Origin: Saccharomycodes ludwigii | Taxonomy: Eukaryota > Ascomycota > Saccharomycetes > Saccharomycodales > Saccharomycodaceae | Reading direction: 5' to 3' | Length of the DNA stretch: 64,000 nucleotides | Assembly: GCF_020623625.1 (NCBI RefSeq) | Contig: NC_060200.1 | Coordinates: 1,418,501 to 1,482,500 of the forward strand | Shown here: positions 10,060-15,475 of the stretch, piece by piece | Layout: each line of letters starts with the position of its first letter | How positions within the stretch are numbered: position 1 is the stretch's first letter | Notes under the pieces: model-generated | Seen by the model: only the letters and a program-made list of their open reading frames with translations | Told to the model about the DNA's origin: nothing | Database searches by the model: none | Program-made: the position numbers and the translations under genes

Positions 10060-11633
10060 TTTTTCCTGAGGTTTGTTGATAATAATAGGTTTTTTTTTCT
10101 CTTTTTATTTTCTATAAAATGTGAAATGGTTTATACAGCTTTTTATTTTATCTGCACTAGATAGTAATAACCTTTACTTGTTGATATATGGGTTAATTGG
10201 TTGAATAAAAAAAAAAAATTTTTTTTTTCTCTCTTTTTTTATTATTATTATTATTAGTATTATTAATAAAAAGTAATTTGTAATATAGTATACTCAAAAA
10301 AGGTAAAAGGCTTCGTTTCTTCTTTTTCTTTTTCTTTTTCTTTTTCTTTTTCTTTTTCTTTTTCTTTTTCTTTTTTTTTTTAAAAAGTAAATGTGTATAT
10401 TTTTGTTTATTTTATTATCTCGTTTAATAACAGCAACGCTAATATTTAATTTATCCCAGGCACTAGATAAATTTTTTACTAAAGCAGATCAAACCAAATT
10501 AAATTGATTCAAGTTAAATCATATCAAACATTAAAAAACTGGAAAAAATTTGGAAAAAAAAAAAGAAAAAAAGAAGAGAAGAAAAAGATATTATGATTTA
10601 TATAAGCATTTTAAAAGAGGAGCTAAAGAAAAAAAAAAAAAAAAAAAAAAAAGCAAATACAATTAAGAACTGGTTATTATATTATTAGCAATTAAGTGCA
10701 ATCAAAAAAAAAAAAAAAAAAAAAAAAACAAAAATGGAAACAAAAGAATGAAAAAGAAAAAAAATGAAATCAACTCCCTAAAAAACTACCAAGTGTTATA
10801 TCCGGGTATGTTACAATCAATATTAAACAAATAAATAAATAAACCGGATGTCAGTTAATATCACTAATTAGAAAAGAAATAAAGATAAGTACTTTTACTA
10901 ATACCCCGTTAAGTTTTGATCTAGGTTTATATGTCTTAGTAATCGTTATGTAGAAAATACTTCTTTGATATTCCTTTATTCAAGTTAGTTTTCTTTTTTT
11001 CGCCACCAAGAAAAACTTCTACGACTGATTGTGTACTGCTAAAAATAAACATATAACAAAGAAGGTCTAGGTTTTTTGTTGTTTTCATTTCTTTTATTTC
11101 TTTTTTTTTTTTTTTTGAACCGGGGCGCAAATAATATTTTATTTCACGGTGACCCCTCCCAGCTCCCAAGTCAATTTTTTCTTTTTTTGATAATGTTGCT
11201 CATTGCTTTTTTGTCCCACAGAAGCCTTCGTACAAAAAGAACAATAACAATAATAACACGAATCACGCGTGGGCATAATTTTAGCCAATTTCAAACAGTT
11301 TTAAAAATAATTTTCCTACTTTTTTTTTTTTTAATTTTTTACAGATTGTATTATATAAAAGGAAGGAATCAGAAGAAAATAAAAAAGAAGGAAAAAAAAA
11401 ATATATATTTTCCTATCGCTTCCAGATTGTTTTTGCCTTTTTCTGATCTTCTTTGACAAGGTTTTATCTTTTTTTTTTTTCTATTGTCCCTTTTCTTTTC
11501 CACTCGTTCTTCTTTGATATGATTATCATTTTTTTCCTTATTAGATTCATACTTTCTTAAATATAAAAAAAAAGTCACACAGTAACACGTTCACACACGG
11601 GAGGAAGAAATATATCTAAGAGGTCTTGGAAAC
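10060..11633. other. Intergenic: ORM and HAC1 promoters and HAC1 leader
   Basis: No protein gene is supported; open frames here are products of A/T runs. A CTTTTT hexamer array runs from about 10318 to 10378, and long A-runs lie near 10628-10652 and 10704-10728. A GC-richer patch with ACGCGT near 11266 lies upstream of HAC1. The last 50 bases are the HAC1 leader, with the element at 11585-11610 that pairs with the intron. Confidence 0.45.
11585..11610 (+). promoter_or_regulatory. HAC1: HAC1 5' leader element complementary to the HAC1 intron
   Basis: Leader bases 11585-11593 (acacgttca) are complementary to intron bases 12528-12536 (tgaacgtgt). Leader bases 11599-11610 (gggaggaagaaa) are complementary to 12516-12527 (ttttttcctccc), with one G-U pair. 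The two intron segments are contiguous; the leader has a five-base bulge between them. In S. cerevisiae such leader-intron pairing blocks translation of unspliced HAC1 mRNA until Ire1 removes the intron. The complementarity is seen directly; the function is inferred from that case. Confidence 0.85.
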
Positions 11634-12858
11634 ATGTCTACTATTATCACCAGTGAAAATACAACCACTAAAACTTTTACACCCAACACTAATGTTGCCG
11701 CTGTAATCCCAGCCGACTTTAAATCTACTTTGCCACCAAGGAAAAGGGCTAAAACTAAAGAAGAAAAGGAGCAAAGACGTATTGAGAGAATCTTAAGAAA
11801 TAGAAAGGCTGCTCATAAGAGTAGAGAGCGTAAGAGACAACAGCTAACCTATTTAAGTGAAAAGTGTAATATATTGGAAAAGATTTTAGCTACTGTTGAT
11901 TTGTCCTTATTAAATGATGAGGCTTTAGGTTTATACCAAAATTATATGGAAAATTTATTACCCAAGGAAAAAGATTTATTTTTAGGTGGTGGTTGTTATA
12001 CAGCTACCACATCTGGTTATGGAATACATAGCACCATTAGTACACCTATTAGTAATATCTCTGAGTCGTTTGATGATGCTAACACTGTTAAAAGTGAAAA
12101 TCAGAAGGAAGCGATTATTGGGAATGAGGAAGATGTATACAACCTTACCCCAGAGAGTGAATTACTGCAGCCAGTTGACAGCATTGGTGATGTCTCCGGG
12201 ATTGAATTTAAACCTAATGTTGTCGAATTTGCGACATTGATTAGTAAACAATCTGGGCAGAAACAAGAAGGGATTAAAGAAGAGGAAATGGATGAGGGAA
12301 GACAACTCGAAATTTTGTTTTGTAATAATAATTACAATGTTAATGAAGATAAGCGCTATCCAGCAGAATTGATAGCGCGTGTTTCTTATATATTGTATTA
12401 TTGAAAATTTTAATTAAAAGAAAAAAGAAAATAAAAGGAAAACGTGGAGAGGTGGTGCTCTTAGTTGAGTTTTTTTAAAACTTCTTCTCCAGATGTTCTA
12501 TTAACGTGTGACAACTTTTTTCCTCCCTGAACGTGTATGGTATCTTTAGGACATTGAAAAAGGTTATCCAACTTACTTTGTTGAGTTTGATCCTTTTTTT
12601 TTTAAACGTTTTCTAATTGTTTTTTCTTTTTTTTTTTTTTTTCTTTTGAAAAAAGAAATTTTGCTTTACTTCATTTTCATTACAATGCCGTGACATATGC
12701 CTGCAGTGCAGATGTCAGACATTGATTTATTGGACCCCGCTACTTCCTCTTCTAATACTTCTTTATTACCCGAATCCGAACAGGAGATATCCCAGTTATT
12801 CAGCAAAAGGACTGATGACTCATCGGGCTTTGTGTTTGATGATTTTGTAAGGTTGTGA
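11634..12858 (+). CDS. HAC1: Hac1 bZIP transcription factor of the unfolded protein response (two exons, Ire1-spliced)
   Basis: Exon 1 (11634-12363) carries a basic region almost identical to S. cerevisiae Hac1 (LPPRKRAKTKEEKEQRRIER, then ILRNRKAAHKSRERKR, about 36-71), followed by a leucine zipper. Unspliced, the frame stops at 12404 and gives 256 residues, the last 13 intron-encoded. Cleavage after 12363 (CAG|CAGA) and 12703 (CTG|CAGT) joins exon 1 in frame to exon 2 (12704-12858), giving 294 residues with a new 50-residue acidic, serine-rich tail ending FDDFVRL. In S. cerevisiae, Ire1 cuts and the tRNA ligase joins HAC1 mRNA in the cytoplasm during ER stress, and the new tail makes a strong activator. 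The exon 2 tail here is much longer than the 18 residues in S. cerevisiae. AGX1 follows, as in YFL031W-YFL030W. Confidence 0.93.
12353..12378 (+). promoter_or_regulatory. HAC1: HAC1 5' splice-site hairpin (Ire1 cleavage site)
   Basis: Bases 12353-12360 (gcgctatc) pair perfectly with 12371-12378 (gatagcgc). The ten-base loop starts CAGCAGA, matching the Ire1 loop consensus CNG|CNGN, with the cut after G12363. The loop is longer than the seven bases of the classic structure. Confidence 0.85.
12364..12703 (+). other. HAC1: HAC1 non-spliceosomal intron (340 nt)
   Basis: It lies between the two Ire1-type loops and lacks GTATGT/TACTAAC/AG ends, as expected for an Ire1 substrate. It holds the 12516-12536 segment complementary to the 5' leader. 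The S. cerevisiae intron has 252 nt. The in-frame stop at 12402-12404 lies within it. Confidence 0.85.
12692..12719 (+). promoter_or_regulatory. HAC1: HAC1 3' splice-site hairpin (Ire1 cleavage site)
   Basis: The stem pairs gacat with atgtc, then, after one mismatch, tgc with gca. It closes a seven-base loop CTGCAGT (12701-12707) that fits CNG|CNGN exactly. Cleavage after G12703 gives an exon 2 start in frame with exon 1. Confidence 0.85.
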
Positions 12859-14305
12859 AAGATTTTTTTTGTGAAGGGATACTTTATTTTTATGTTTTCT
12901 GTTTGTTTATTTATTTGATTATTTTGTTTTTCATTTCGATTATTAGTTTTTTACTGTTTCATTTGGTATTAGATTTTTTTTCAATTCTGGAAATTATACA
13001 CGTATACAAAGTATGATTTTTTTTTCAAAAAAGAAATCAAAAAAAAAGAAAAAAAAGAAAAAGAAAGAAAGAGCGGAAAAAAAGAGCAGCTAGAGTTCTT
13101 TTTTAATGCAGTATGAAGTACAAAATAAATGACTGGGTTATTTCATTTTTGTATTAATTATATTCCCACCTCCAACCCAAACTATTTCTATTAAGTCTGA
13201 TATTGATGAAAATAACAACAATAATAATAAAGTAAATTCAATTGTGGCGCGTTTGAATAAGATGACACACTATTTTTTCTGCGACTGGTTTTTATCGTTA
13301 TTTTTTTTCACTGTTATTTTCACTAGTATCAAACTTAGCTATAGTGATAATATTATTTTACGTTTTACATTTGACGGTTGGAACCTGTGAGCGAAGGAAG
13401 TATAATAAGTCAGGAAAAAATTTTGATTTTCTGATTTTCTTTTTTTTTTTTTTTCTTTTTTTTTTTTAATTTGACGAGTATGTGGTTGTGTAATATCCTT
13501 TAATTCATTTAAGTTATTAATATTTCGTAAACTATCTTGAATTTTATATGATTCTTACTTTTCAATTGGTAAGTTCTTTTTAAGAATGCTACTACCAATA
13601 TGTGCTTATCGTTAATTATCTTCCATAAAGGCTAATTAAATAGAAAGAACAAAAACAAAAACAATAATTGTTTCTATTTGTTGCAGACAAGTGCAATTCA
13701 AAATAGGGAATTTATAGTGTACTAATATACTTTCGGTCAATTCCGAGGCTGGGACAAATCACTTGCATATCTTCCTTTTGTCCTGTTCCTCCTTTTGTCC
13801 TGACCTTCCTTTTTAGCGAAATGAAAAAAAAATACATGTATATATTATATAAGGTGCTATGTTAATAACAGCTGTTTATTATGTGAATTCAACTCTACTG
13901 TAATATCATCTTAAAATCCACGTTAAAATTCTTTTCATGACGTGTCTGTGGGTAGTTTTTGTTTAAAATTCTGGTTTTTAATATTATATATGTATATATC
14001 GGCAATGAATACAAATTTTTTTAAAAAAGTGACATTATAAGTAGTAAATGTCTTGTATAAAGAGAAAGAAGGTAAAATATTGAATAATTTTTGATTTATT
14101 TATTTAATTATTTAAGTAGTTCTCCCCTCCCCCTCTTCTTTTTATTCCTTCCTTAATCTCTTTGCTTTTACACGCTGTATATCAAGTTTCACATTCTTGA
14201 AGTGATTGCAAAACTGAGGATTAAGGATAAAAAATTAATACTCTAATTCACGTATTGTCACGTAAAAAAAAAAAAAAAACATCAATAACACCGAGACTAT
14301 CAAAA
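12859..14305. other. Intergenic: HAC1 3' flank and AGX1 promoter
   Basis: No gene is supported. It contains T- and A-rich runs, a twice-repeated ccttttgtcctg segment near 13770-13805, and a TGACGTGT motif near 13938-13946, about 360 bp upstream of AGX1, resembling a Hac1/CREB-type site. The function of the motif is unknown. Confidence 0.4.
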
Positions 14306-15475
14306 ATGACAGTAGCAACCGATAATGATGACTTACAGTCCACATTAATGATCCCAGGTCCAATCAGATTATCAACAGATGTTCAAAATGCATTGGGAAC
14401 ACCATCTATTTCCCATACTGGCACGCATTTTACCAAAACCTTTCAATCGGCGTTATTAAAATTGCAAAAATTATTTAACGTAGAGGAAAAGGAAGGATAT
14501 TTACCATTTGTTATTAGTAGTTCTGGTACAATGGGTTGGGATTTAGTAGGCAATAATTTGCTATCTAGTTCTGATACCGACTGTAACAACAATGCTTTAG
14601 TTTTGTCTACAGGTTTCTTTAGTGAATCTTTTTACCTTTGTTTACAATCGTACGCCAGCAATAAAAGCACTGTAGACAAAATAGTTGCCCCCTTAGGCAC
14701 CTCTGATTTTGATGAAGCAGAATTAATTGCAAAATTAAGCAGCAAGAAATATAGATTGGTTACTATTACCCATGTTGATACATCAACTGCTACATTAGTT
14801 GATTTGAATAAAGTTGTTAAAGTTATTAAAGACACAAGCCCATCGACTTTCATCGTAATCGATGGTGTTTGTTCTGTTGGTTGCGAGGAACTCGATTTAG
14901 GCAAACTAAAGGGGATTGATTTTGTTTTCACCGCATCCCAAAAGGCTATTGGTGTTGCTCCAGGCTTATGTTTAGGTATTATTTCCCCTAGAGTGGTTGA
15001 TTTCATATTGAATGAAAATAAGAATAATATTAGGGGTTATTATACTAATTTGACCAAGTGGTTGCCAGTTATGCAAAGCTTTATCAAGAATCAAGCAAAA
15101 TATTTTGCCACACCACCAGTTCAGTTAATTCACGCTCTAAATGTTTCATTAAGTGGAATTTTAAAGCAAGGTGTTACTAAAAGGGTTGAAGAGCATAAAT
15201 CAAAATCCGACTGGTTTAAGGACAAAATCGTCAATGACTTGAAATTGAAATTAGTTAGTCAACCTGGTTATGGTGCTCATGGTTTAACGGCAATCTATGT
15301 TAACAATCCAGCTGAACTTTTAAAAAAAATCGGAGCCGACGGAATTGTTCTTGCTGGTGGAATTCATAAAGATATTAAGGACCAATACATTAGAGTGGGT
15401 CATATGGGTGTTTCTATCGAAAATGGTGATTTAGAAAAAGTTTATGAAGCTTTAAAAAAAAACGTTATCCAGTAA
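14306..15475 (+). CDS. AGX1: Agx1 alanine:glyoxylate aminotransferase
   Basis: The protein has 389 residues from the ATG at 14306 (context caaaaATG). The frame is open further upstream but has no earlier ATG, and S. cerevisiae Agx1 has 385 residues, so this start is preferred. It is a class V PLP aminotransferase: the substrate-binding start MIPGPIRLS, the aspartate strand IDGVCSVGCEE (about 185-195) and the PLP lysine in TASQKAIG (Lys213) are present, followed by APPVQL-like TPPVQLI and the C-terminal HKDIKDQYIRVGHMG. It makes glycine and pyruvate from alanine and glyoxylate. HAC1-AGX1 adjacency equals YFL031W-YFL030W. The next gene, SHM2, interconverts glycine and serine, so two glycine-forming enzymes are neighbours, though ancestral order may explain this. 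Confidence 0.95.
   Translation: MTVATDNDDLQSTLMIPGPIRLSTDVQNALGTPSISHTGTHFTKTFQSALLKLQKLFNVEEKEGYLPFVISSSGTMGWDLVGNNLLSSSDTDCNNNALVLSTGFFSESFYLCLQSYASNKSTVDKIVAPLGTSDFDEAELIAKLSSKKYRLVTITHVDTSTATLVDLNKVVKVIKDTSPSTFIVIDGVCSVGCEELDLGKLKGIDFVFTASQKAIGVAPGLCLGIISPRVVDFILNENKNNIRGYYTNLTKWLPVMQSFIKNQAKYFATPPVQLIHALNVSLSGILKQGVTKRVEEHKSKSDWFKDKIVNDLKLKLVSQPGYGAHGLTAIYVNNPAELLKKIGADGIVLAGGIHKDIKDQYIRVGHMGVSIENGDLEKVYEALKKNVIQ

Follow-up and report, generated by a model that had tools for sequence, protein, structure and literature searches.

A candidate leader-intron attenuator in HAC1 of the yeast Saccharomycodes ludwigii

Is the HAC1 messenger of the wine-spoilage yeast Saccharomycodes ludwigii (order Saccharomycodales) held silent by pairing between its leader and its own intron? 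In Saccharomyces cerevisiae, a duplex between the 5' untranslated region (UTR) and the intron of HAC1 was reportedly described by Ruegsegger in 2001. The gene considered here lies in a window of 64,000 nucleotides (nt; 30.6% G+C), read on the forward strand from positions 1,418,501 to 1,482,500 of NC_060200.1, which is contig 1 of the 8 in the 12,500,424-base assembly that was searched. The published genome comprises 12.5 Mb in seven chromosomes and has a G+C content of 29.6% over the part analysed (PMC8567612); here and below, cited papers are drawn on for those parts of their text that were available. Just upstream of its AUG, the gene carries a segment complementary to the middle of its predicted intron, and we conclude that this pairing probably blocks translation initiation until Ire1 splicing lifts the block.

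The gene and its leader-intron complementarity

The open reading frame (ORF) at 11634-12404 encodes a bZIP protein whose PF00170 score, 28.6 bits, is just above the cut-off of 27.6 and, judged from its sequence, the gene at 11634 is HAC1, which encodes the Ire1-spliced bZIP factor. Five trial junctions were compared for its intron: after three of them the frame closes within 8 codons, and with the other two exon 2 stays open for ~50 codons. The junction joining 12363 to 12704 was chosen because both cuts there follow the G of CNG/CNG (the slash marks the cut), the consensus of Ire1 splice sites. The motifs read CAG/CAG at 12363 and CUG/CAG at 12703, and the joined frame ends in DDFVRL and a stop. 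The predicted intron of 340 nt differs in length from the 252 nt of S. cerevisiae, as an earlier note on this window, made from the sequence alone, had remarked. The same note had called the gene HAC1 and placed paired segments upstream of the AUG and inside the intron, and was right on both counts.

The duplex was read directly and recomputed, and the coordinates, pair counts and bulge first given for it are exact (Table 1). It has 20 Watson-Crick pairs and one G-U pair, a 5-nt bulge and an RNAduplex energy of -28.4 kcal/mol, and it joins leader positions -49 to -24 from the AUG with nt 153-173 of the 340-nt intron. All 12 bases of the helix 2 leader arm are purines, six of them G, with the pyrimidines on the intron side; helix 1 is not homopurine. 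A blind listing of inverted repeats over 11534-12703 (21 pairs) contains both helices, and the other leader-intron pairs in it are matches of A-runs with T-runs. At 9 + 12 pairs, the complementarity is longer than the 11 base pairs (bp) that suffice for attenuation in S. cerevisiae (PMC8881652), where the duplex tolerates changes of sequence that preserve pairing (PMC5114014). An extended duplex of 47 pairs over leader 11571-11630 was rejected, shuffled flanks around the fixed core being as good in 95 of 400 trials.

The genome encodes the enzymes that such a switch would use. A single match to the RNase domain (PF06479, 154.7 bits) marks IRE1 and a single tRNA-ligase match (PF09511, 281.7 bits) marks TRL1. 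With the intron present, 12516-12536 would pair with the leader, and a duplex near the cap would keep the pre-initiation complex away from the AUG. Under endoplasmic reticulum stress, Ire1 would cut at 12363 and 12703 and the ligase Trl1 would join the exons, so that the intron arm would be lost, the leader would open, and Hac1 with the exon-2 tail would be made. We infer the same mechanism as in S. cerevisiae because the positions in leader and intron lie with those of the S. cerevisiae and Kluyveromyces lactis cases. The leader-intron attenuator proposed in the earlier note remains the best reading of gene and pairing, with a correction to how it would act: the S. cerevisiae duplex, said there to stall translation, blocks initiation, and the data argue against ribosomes stalled on the ORF (PMC5114014, PMC8881652).

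Table 1. Features of the HAC1 locus, in positions of the window
Feature	Position	Strand	Remarks
Helix 1 leader arm, 9 bp	11585..11593	+	ACACGUUCA, -49 to -41 from AUG
Leader-side bulge between helices, 5 nt	11594..11598	+	Read directly, recomputed
Helix 2 leader arm, 12 bp, one G-U	11599..11610	+	GGGAGGAAGAAA, all purine, -35 to -24
Helix 2 intron arm	12516..12527	+	UUUUUUCCUCCC, 11 Watson-Crick + 1 G-U with 11599-11610
Helix 1 intron arm, adjoins helix 2 arm directly	12528..12536	+	UGAACGUGU, 9 Watson-Crick with 11585-11593
HAC1 exon 1 (bZIP)	11634..12363	+	Unspliced ORF continues to stop 12402-12404
HAC1 non-spliceosomal intron, 340 nt, predicted	12364..12703	+	Chosen from five trial junctions
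HAC1 exon 2 coding, stop included	12704..12858	+	Frame open after predicted junction; tail end GFVFDDFVRL
Intron-encoded tail of unspliced Hac1	12364-12404	+	AELIARVSYILYY, translation
Possible transcription start zone, inferred	11566..11580	+	T-to-A switch; A-run then pyrimidine-A
TATA-box-like sequence	11352..11361	+	Motif match
5' splice-site hairpin, 8-bp stem, 10-nt loop	12353..12378	+	Predicted cut after G12363 (CAG/CAG)
3' splice-site hairpin, 7-nt centroid loop CUG/CAGU	12691..12717	+	Predicted cut after G12703

Chance, competing folds and the start of the transcript

How far does this complementarity go beyond chance? Among 12,792 40-nt windows covering both strands of the 64 kb, own antisense excluded, each arm has the other as its best partner (-29.1 against -25.7 for the next, and -29.2 against -21.1 for the next independent one). 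Elsewhere in the genome, 19 pieces of 10 kb each gave 35,856 40-nt windows after those containing N were dropped, and none of these matches either arm as well, the best reaching -25.5 and -22.4. These fixed-arm scans overstate significance because the arms were chosen for pairing. A fairer null takes the 100-nt leader and the 340-nt intron in full, for which the observed compact-duplex energy is -40.55. That energy is reached by 11 of 1500 dinucleotide shuffles and by 3 of 1500 in which shuffling was confined to the intron. In genomic sets it is reached by 0 of 470 combinations of the HAC1 leader with intergenic sequence, 0 of 87 of other leaders with the HAC1 intron, 1 of 85 of other leaders with their own 3' flank, and 9 of 3000 random pairs. 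Masking homopolymer runs of 7 or more gives 0/470, 0/87 and 0/85 for the same sets, and 6/4000 for random pairs.

Helix length was scored after masking homopolymers, and G-U pairs were included. A length of 21 is reached once in 472 combinations of the HAC1 leader with intergenic sequence, once in 88 of other leaders with the HAC1 intron, in 76 of 8000 random leader/intergenic pairs and in 24 of 3000 shuffles; the sets of 472 and 88, against 470 and 87 for energy, probably differ by an IRE1 stretch added in between. Chained RNAduplex energy was also tried, but proved a weak statistic, since tracts of low complexity chain, and was dropped for compact-duplex energy; by it, 17 of 2000 shuffles do as well, as do 0/470, 0/87 and 0/85 in the genomic sets and 8 of 2000 random pairs. 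Some matches among the random pairs, with energies to about -150, are probably leaders paired with their own antisense, and these were kept in the counts. The pairing is thus beyond chance at roughly p 0.002-0.01, a value that is not astronomically small and that holds for a single question set beforehand, asked of a gene in which pairing of this kind was to be expected.

It is unlikely, though the chance is by no means negligible, that a purine tract of an A-rich leader has simply met a pyrimidine tract of a T-rich intron, with HAC1 silenced in some other way. Such an encounter would account for the shuffles and random pairs that equal the helix by length alone, or by compact or chained energy, and for the failure of RNAfold to choose the duplex in the full mRNA. 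Two further points weigh against an attenuator: arm 2 is a low-complexity purine/pyrimidine tract, and pairing beyond the core is no better than with shuffled flanks (95/400). Against a chance encounter stand the mixed composition of helix 1 (ACACGUUCA), the collinearity of the two helices and their adjacency on the intron, the reciprocal choice of the arms as best partners in 64 kb with no equal in the 35,856 windows, and a position that agrees with two published cases (PMC8881652, PMC6116095).

The folding results also weigh against the attenuator. The earlier note proposed folding the whole unspliced mRNA with RNAfold, and a different fold is preferred. In transcripts ending at 13110, the minimum contains none of the 21 pairs when the start is 11566, 11534, 11484, 11434 or 11350, and for a start at 11577 their mean probability is 0.0. 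Enforcing the pairs to 13110 costs 4.6 (start 11566), 6.0 (11534), 6.6 (11484), 13.0 (11434) and 4.8 (11577) kcal/mol, and in transcripts to 12860 it costs 10.1-23.1 kcal/mol. The intron arm has a rival partner in a local hairpin within 12513-12565 (-11.6, z -1.19, 27 of 200 shuffles), and the leader arm additionally folds back onto 11530-11539 when the start is at 11434. When the same core was planted in 12 shuffled bodies (11566-12860), the gap was 0 in 7 and at most 3.0 in 11, with a maximum of 10.8. The native gap of 11.7 exceeds all 12, so competition within the native mRNA is stronger than in any of the shuffled bodies, and RNAfold chooses the pairing less readily there. The local opening costs of the arms are ordinary (4.8 and 4.4 kcal/mol), and subtracting them leaves about -19 kcal/mol, weaker than the IntaRNA energy of the S. 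cerevisiae duplex (-25.15) and of its leaky mutants (-21.3 and -22.6; PMC8881652), although programs and settings differ. If the transcript is instead cut off where the intron ends, RNAfold includes the core in its minimum for starts at 11577, 11566 and 11534 only, with mean pair probabilities of 0.90, ~0.69 and ~0.25, and leaves it out for starts at 11484, 11434 and 11350. In our judgement, global folding of 1.5 kb is probably a poor guide to contacts of this kind.

The start of the transcript matters because 24 extra bases ahead of the duplex relieve the block in S. cerevisiae, whose HAC1 leader is 68 nt long with the duplex ~30 nt from the cap (PMC8881652). Mean composition over 56 other genes changes from T-rich to A-rich at about -60, and the resembling switch in HAC1 falls at about -80 to -60. 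This composition suggests a leader of ~55-80 nt with the duplex near the cap, as in S. cerevisiae; the start zone in Table 1 draws in addition on a general initiator preference. We consider it decidedly unlikely that the start lies elsewhere, leaving the leader arm outside the mRNA or too far from the cap to block. What could place it there is the general yeast spacing of 40-120 nt from TATA box to start. From the TATA-like sequence at 11352, this spacing gives a start at ~11390-11470 and a leader with an upstream ORF at 11519. From a second TATA-like match at 11562, which weighs against the attenuator, it gives a start at ~11602-11682, inside or beyond the leader arm. The composition switch and the 68-nt S. 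cerevisiae leader speak against both. The earlier note had made its reading depend on a start no further downstream than 11610; the match at 11562 allows one beyond, and the composition switch suggests one upstream. The upstream ORF spans 11519-11560, has 13 codons, and is within the leader if the start falls soon after the TATA-like sequence at 11352.

Might the pairing be real and yet act mainly on splicing, localisation or stability, for instance by leaving the messenger free for Ire1 docking, while repression falls mainly to the tail that the intron encodes or to something else in the gene? In S. cerevisiae, the 3' UTR can target HAC1 mRNA to Ire1 so long as the messenger stays repressed (PMC4279078), and the pairing has a second safeguard in a degradation tail (PMC5114014). 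Here, the tail AELIARVSYILYY shares only the first residue of A-V-I-T, the start of the S. cerevisiae-type Duh1 tail degron and the most conserved positions of the Saccharomyces-type tail (PMC8002603), and we regard this explanation as very improbable. Since the tail is unlike A-V-I-T, this species may lack a second, post-translational lock or have one of another kind. The Ire1 gene, on the minus strand, has ~1,329 codons from its first ATG and carries a basic box in the linker, PKRKRKRGKRGGKR, similar to the mRNA-docking box described in Ire1 of other fungi (PMC4279078); this box counts in favour of the attenuator reading and predicts a 3' UTR targeting element in HAC1.

Layout and letters in other yeasts

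So, is the attenuator old? By the coordinates in PMC8881652, the S. cerevisiae duplex joins leader -38 to -20 with intron nt 103-121 of 252. Twelve of its 19 leader-arm bases are named there (AACC at -38 to -35, and -33, -32, -30, -29, -27, -23, -22 and -20), and these are nine C and three A. The two species share a leader segment just upstream of the AUG that pairs, or in S. ludwigii can pair, with the middle of the intron, the splice logic and the machinery genes. They differ in that S. cerevisiae has C and A at the named leader-arm positions in a gene with a 252-nt intron, whereas S. ludwigii has a purine helix 2 at a leader site of -49 to -24, 21 pairs with a 5-nt bulge, and an intron of 340 nt. 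Over the 12 positions that could be compared, the layout is common and the letters are not shared. The claim that the pairing is kept outside S. cerevisiae thus holds for the architecture and fails for the letters.

Nor is this the first such pairing outside S. cerevisiae. In K. lactis, HAC1 has a predicted pairing of leader -52 to -28 with intron positions +909 to +936, which from the coordinates is nt 104-131 of a 297-nt intron (PMC6116095). The leader position is almost that found here, the intron is shorter (297 against 340 nt), and the likeness is one of position. Hansenula (Ogataea) polymorpha is a methylotrophic yeast outside Saccharomycodaceae. Its 177-nt HAC1 intron likely hybridises to the 5' UTR according to a review (PMC10608004). 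An earlier study, as cited in PMC6116095, ties attenuation to long introns.

For Saccharomycodaceae themselves, the families named in the available text of a HAC1 survey of 32 species are Saccharomycetaceae and others, not this one, and neither Saccharomycodes nor Hanseniaspora occurs there (PMC8002603). HAC1 is not mentioned in the main text of the S. ludwigii genome paper PMC7903802, and no title in the open literature searched dealt with S. ludwigii HAC1. Within that literature, the pairing in this gene seems to be undescribed, although its kind is known.

The suggestion in the earlier note that the attenuation switch is old is plausible, but with no sequence likeness between the arms of the two species it may also have arisen more than once. 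A shared layout without shared letters fits either free drift under complementarity or independent origin. We can say only tentatively, and at somewhat less than even confidence, that either the attenuator predates the split of Saccharomycodaceae and Saccharomycetaceae, with position and complementarity kept by selection and letters rewritten, or such a switch arose twice, in the same two places. Had it been rewritten, the purine-rich strand would have swapped sides, being in the leader here and in the intron in S. cerevisiae. The case adds a family for which no description of HAC1 control was found, and suggests that the attenuator can keep its layout while sharing no recognisable sequence. 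If so, simple sequence alignment would be the wrong tool for tracing it, and Saccharomycodes and Hanseniaspora would be good material for telling a switch that drifts under pure complementarity from one that was reinvented.

Splice-site hairpins and surroundings

Within the genome, the exon-1 protein has no match beyond its own gene, which gives no sign of a HAC1 paralogue, and one scan each of genome contigs and viral contigs found no relative of it. An Rfam scan of 10500-13500 returned three matches, all below the gathering score and none relevant. Downstream, the match at 14306 is to the Aminotran_5 domain only; in the S. cerevisiae gene order, AGX1 lies near HAC1.

Both predicted splice sites fall in hairpins. 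The one at the 5' site is strong, with none of 200 shuffles equalling it (z -3.98), and in its centroid structure a stem of 8 unbroken pairs closes a loop of 10 nt, CAGCAGAAUU. The one at the 3' site does not stand out from shuffled sequence (z -0.23, equalled by 70 of 200). Seven-base loops are described at the HAC1 splice sites of S. cerevisiae and P. pastoris (PMC2905327); here the 3' site has 7 nt in the centroid and the 5' site has 10 nt.

Two further structures occur within the intron. An A-rich and a T-rich arm of 34 nt (12409-12442 and 12621-12654), 82% complementary and ~45-50 nt inside the intron ends, could bring both splice sites together, and may be due to chance given their low complexity. 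A hairpin at 12445-12491, pairing GGAGAGG with CUUCUCC, has an energy of -16.8 kcal/mol (z -2.15), which 6 of 200 shuffles equal.

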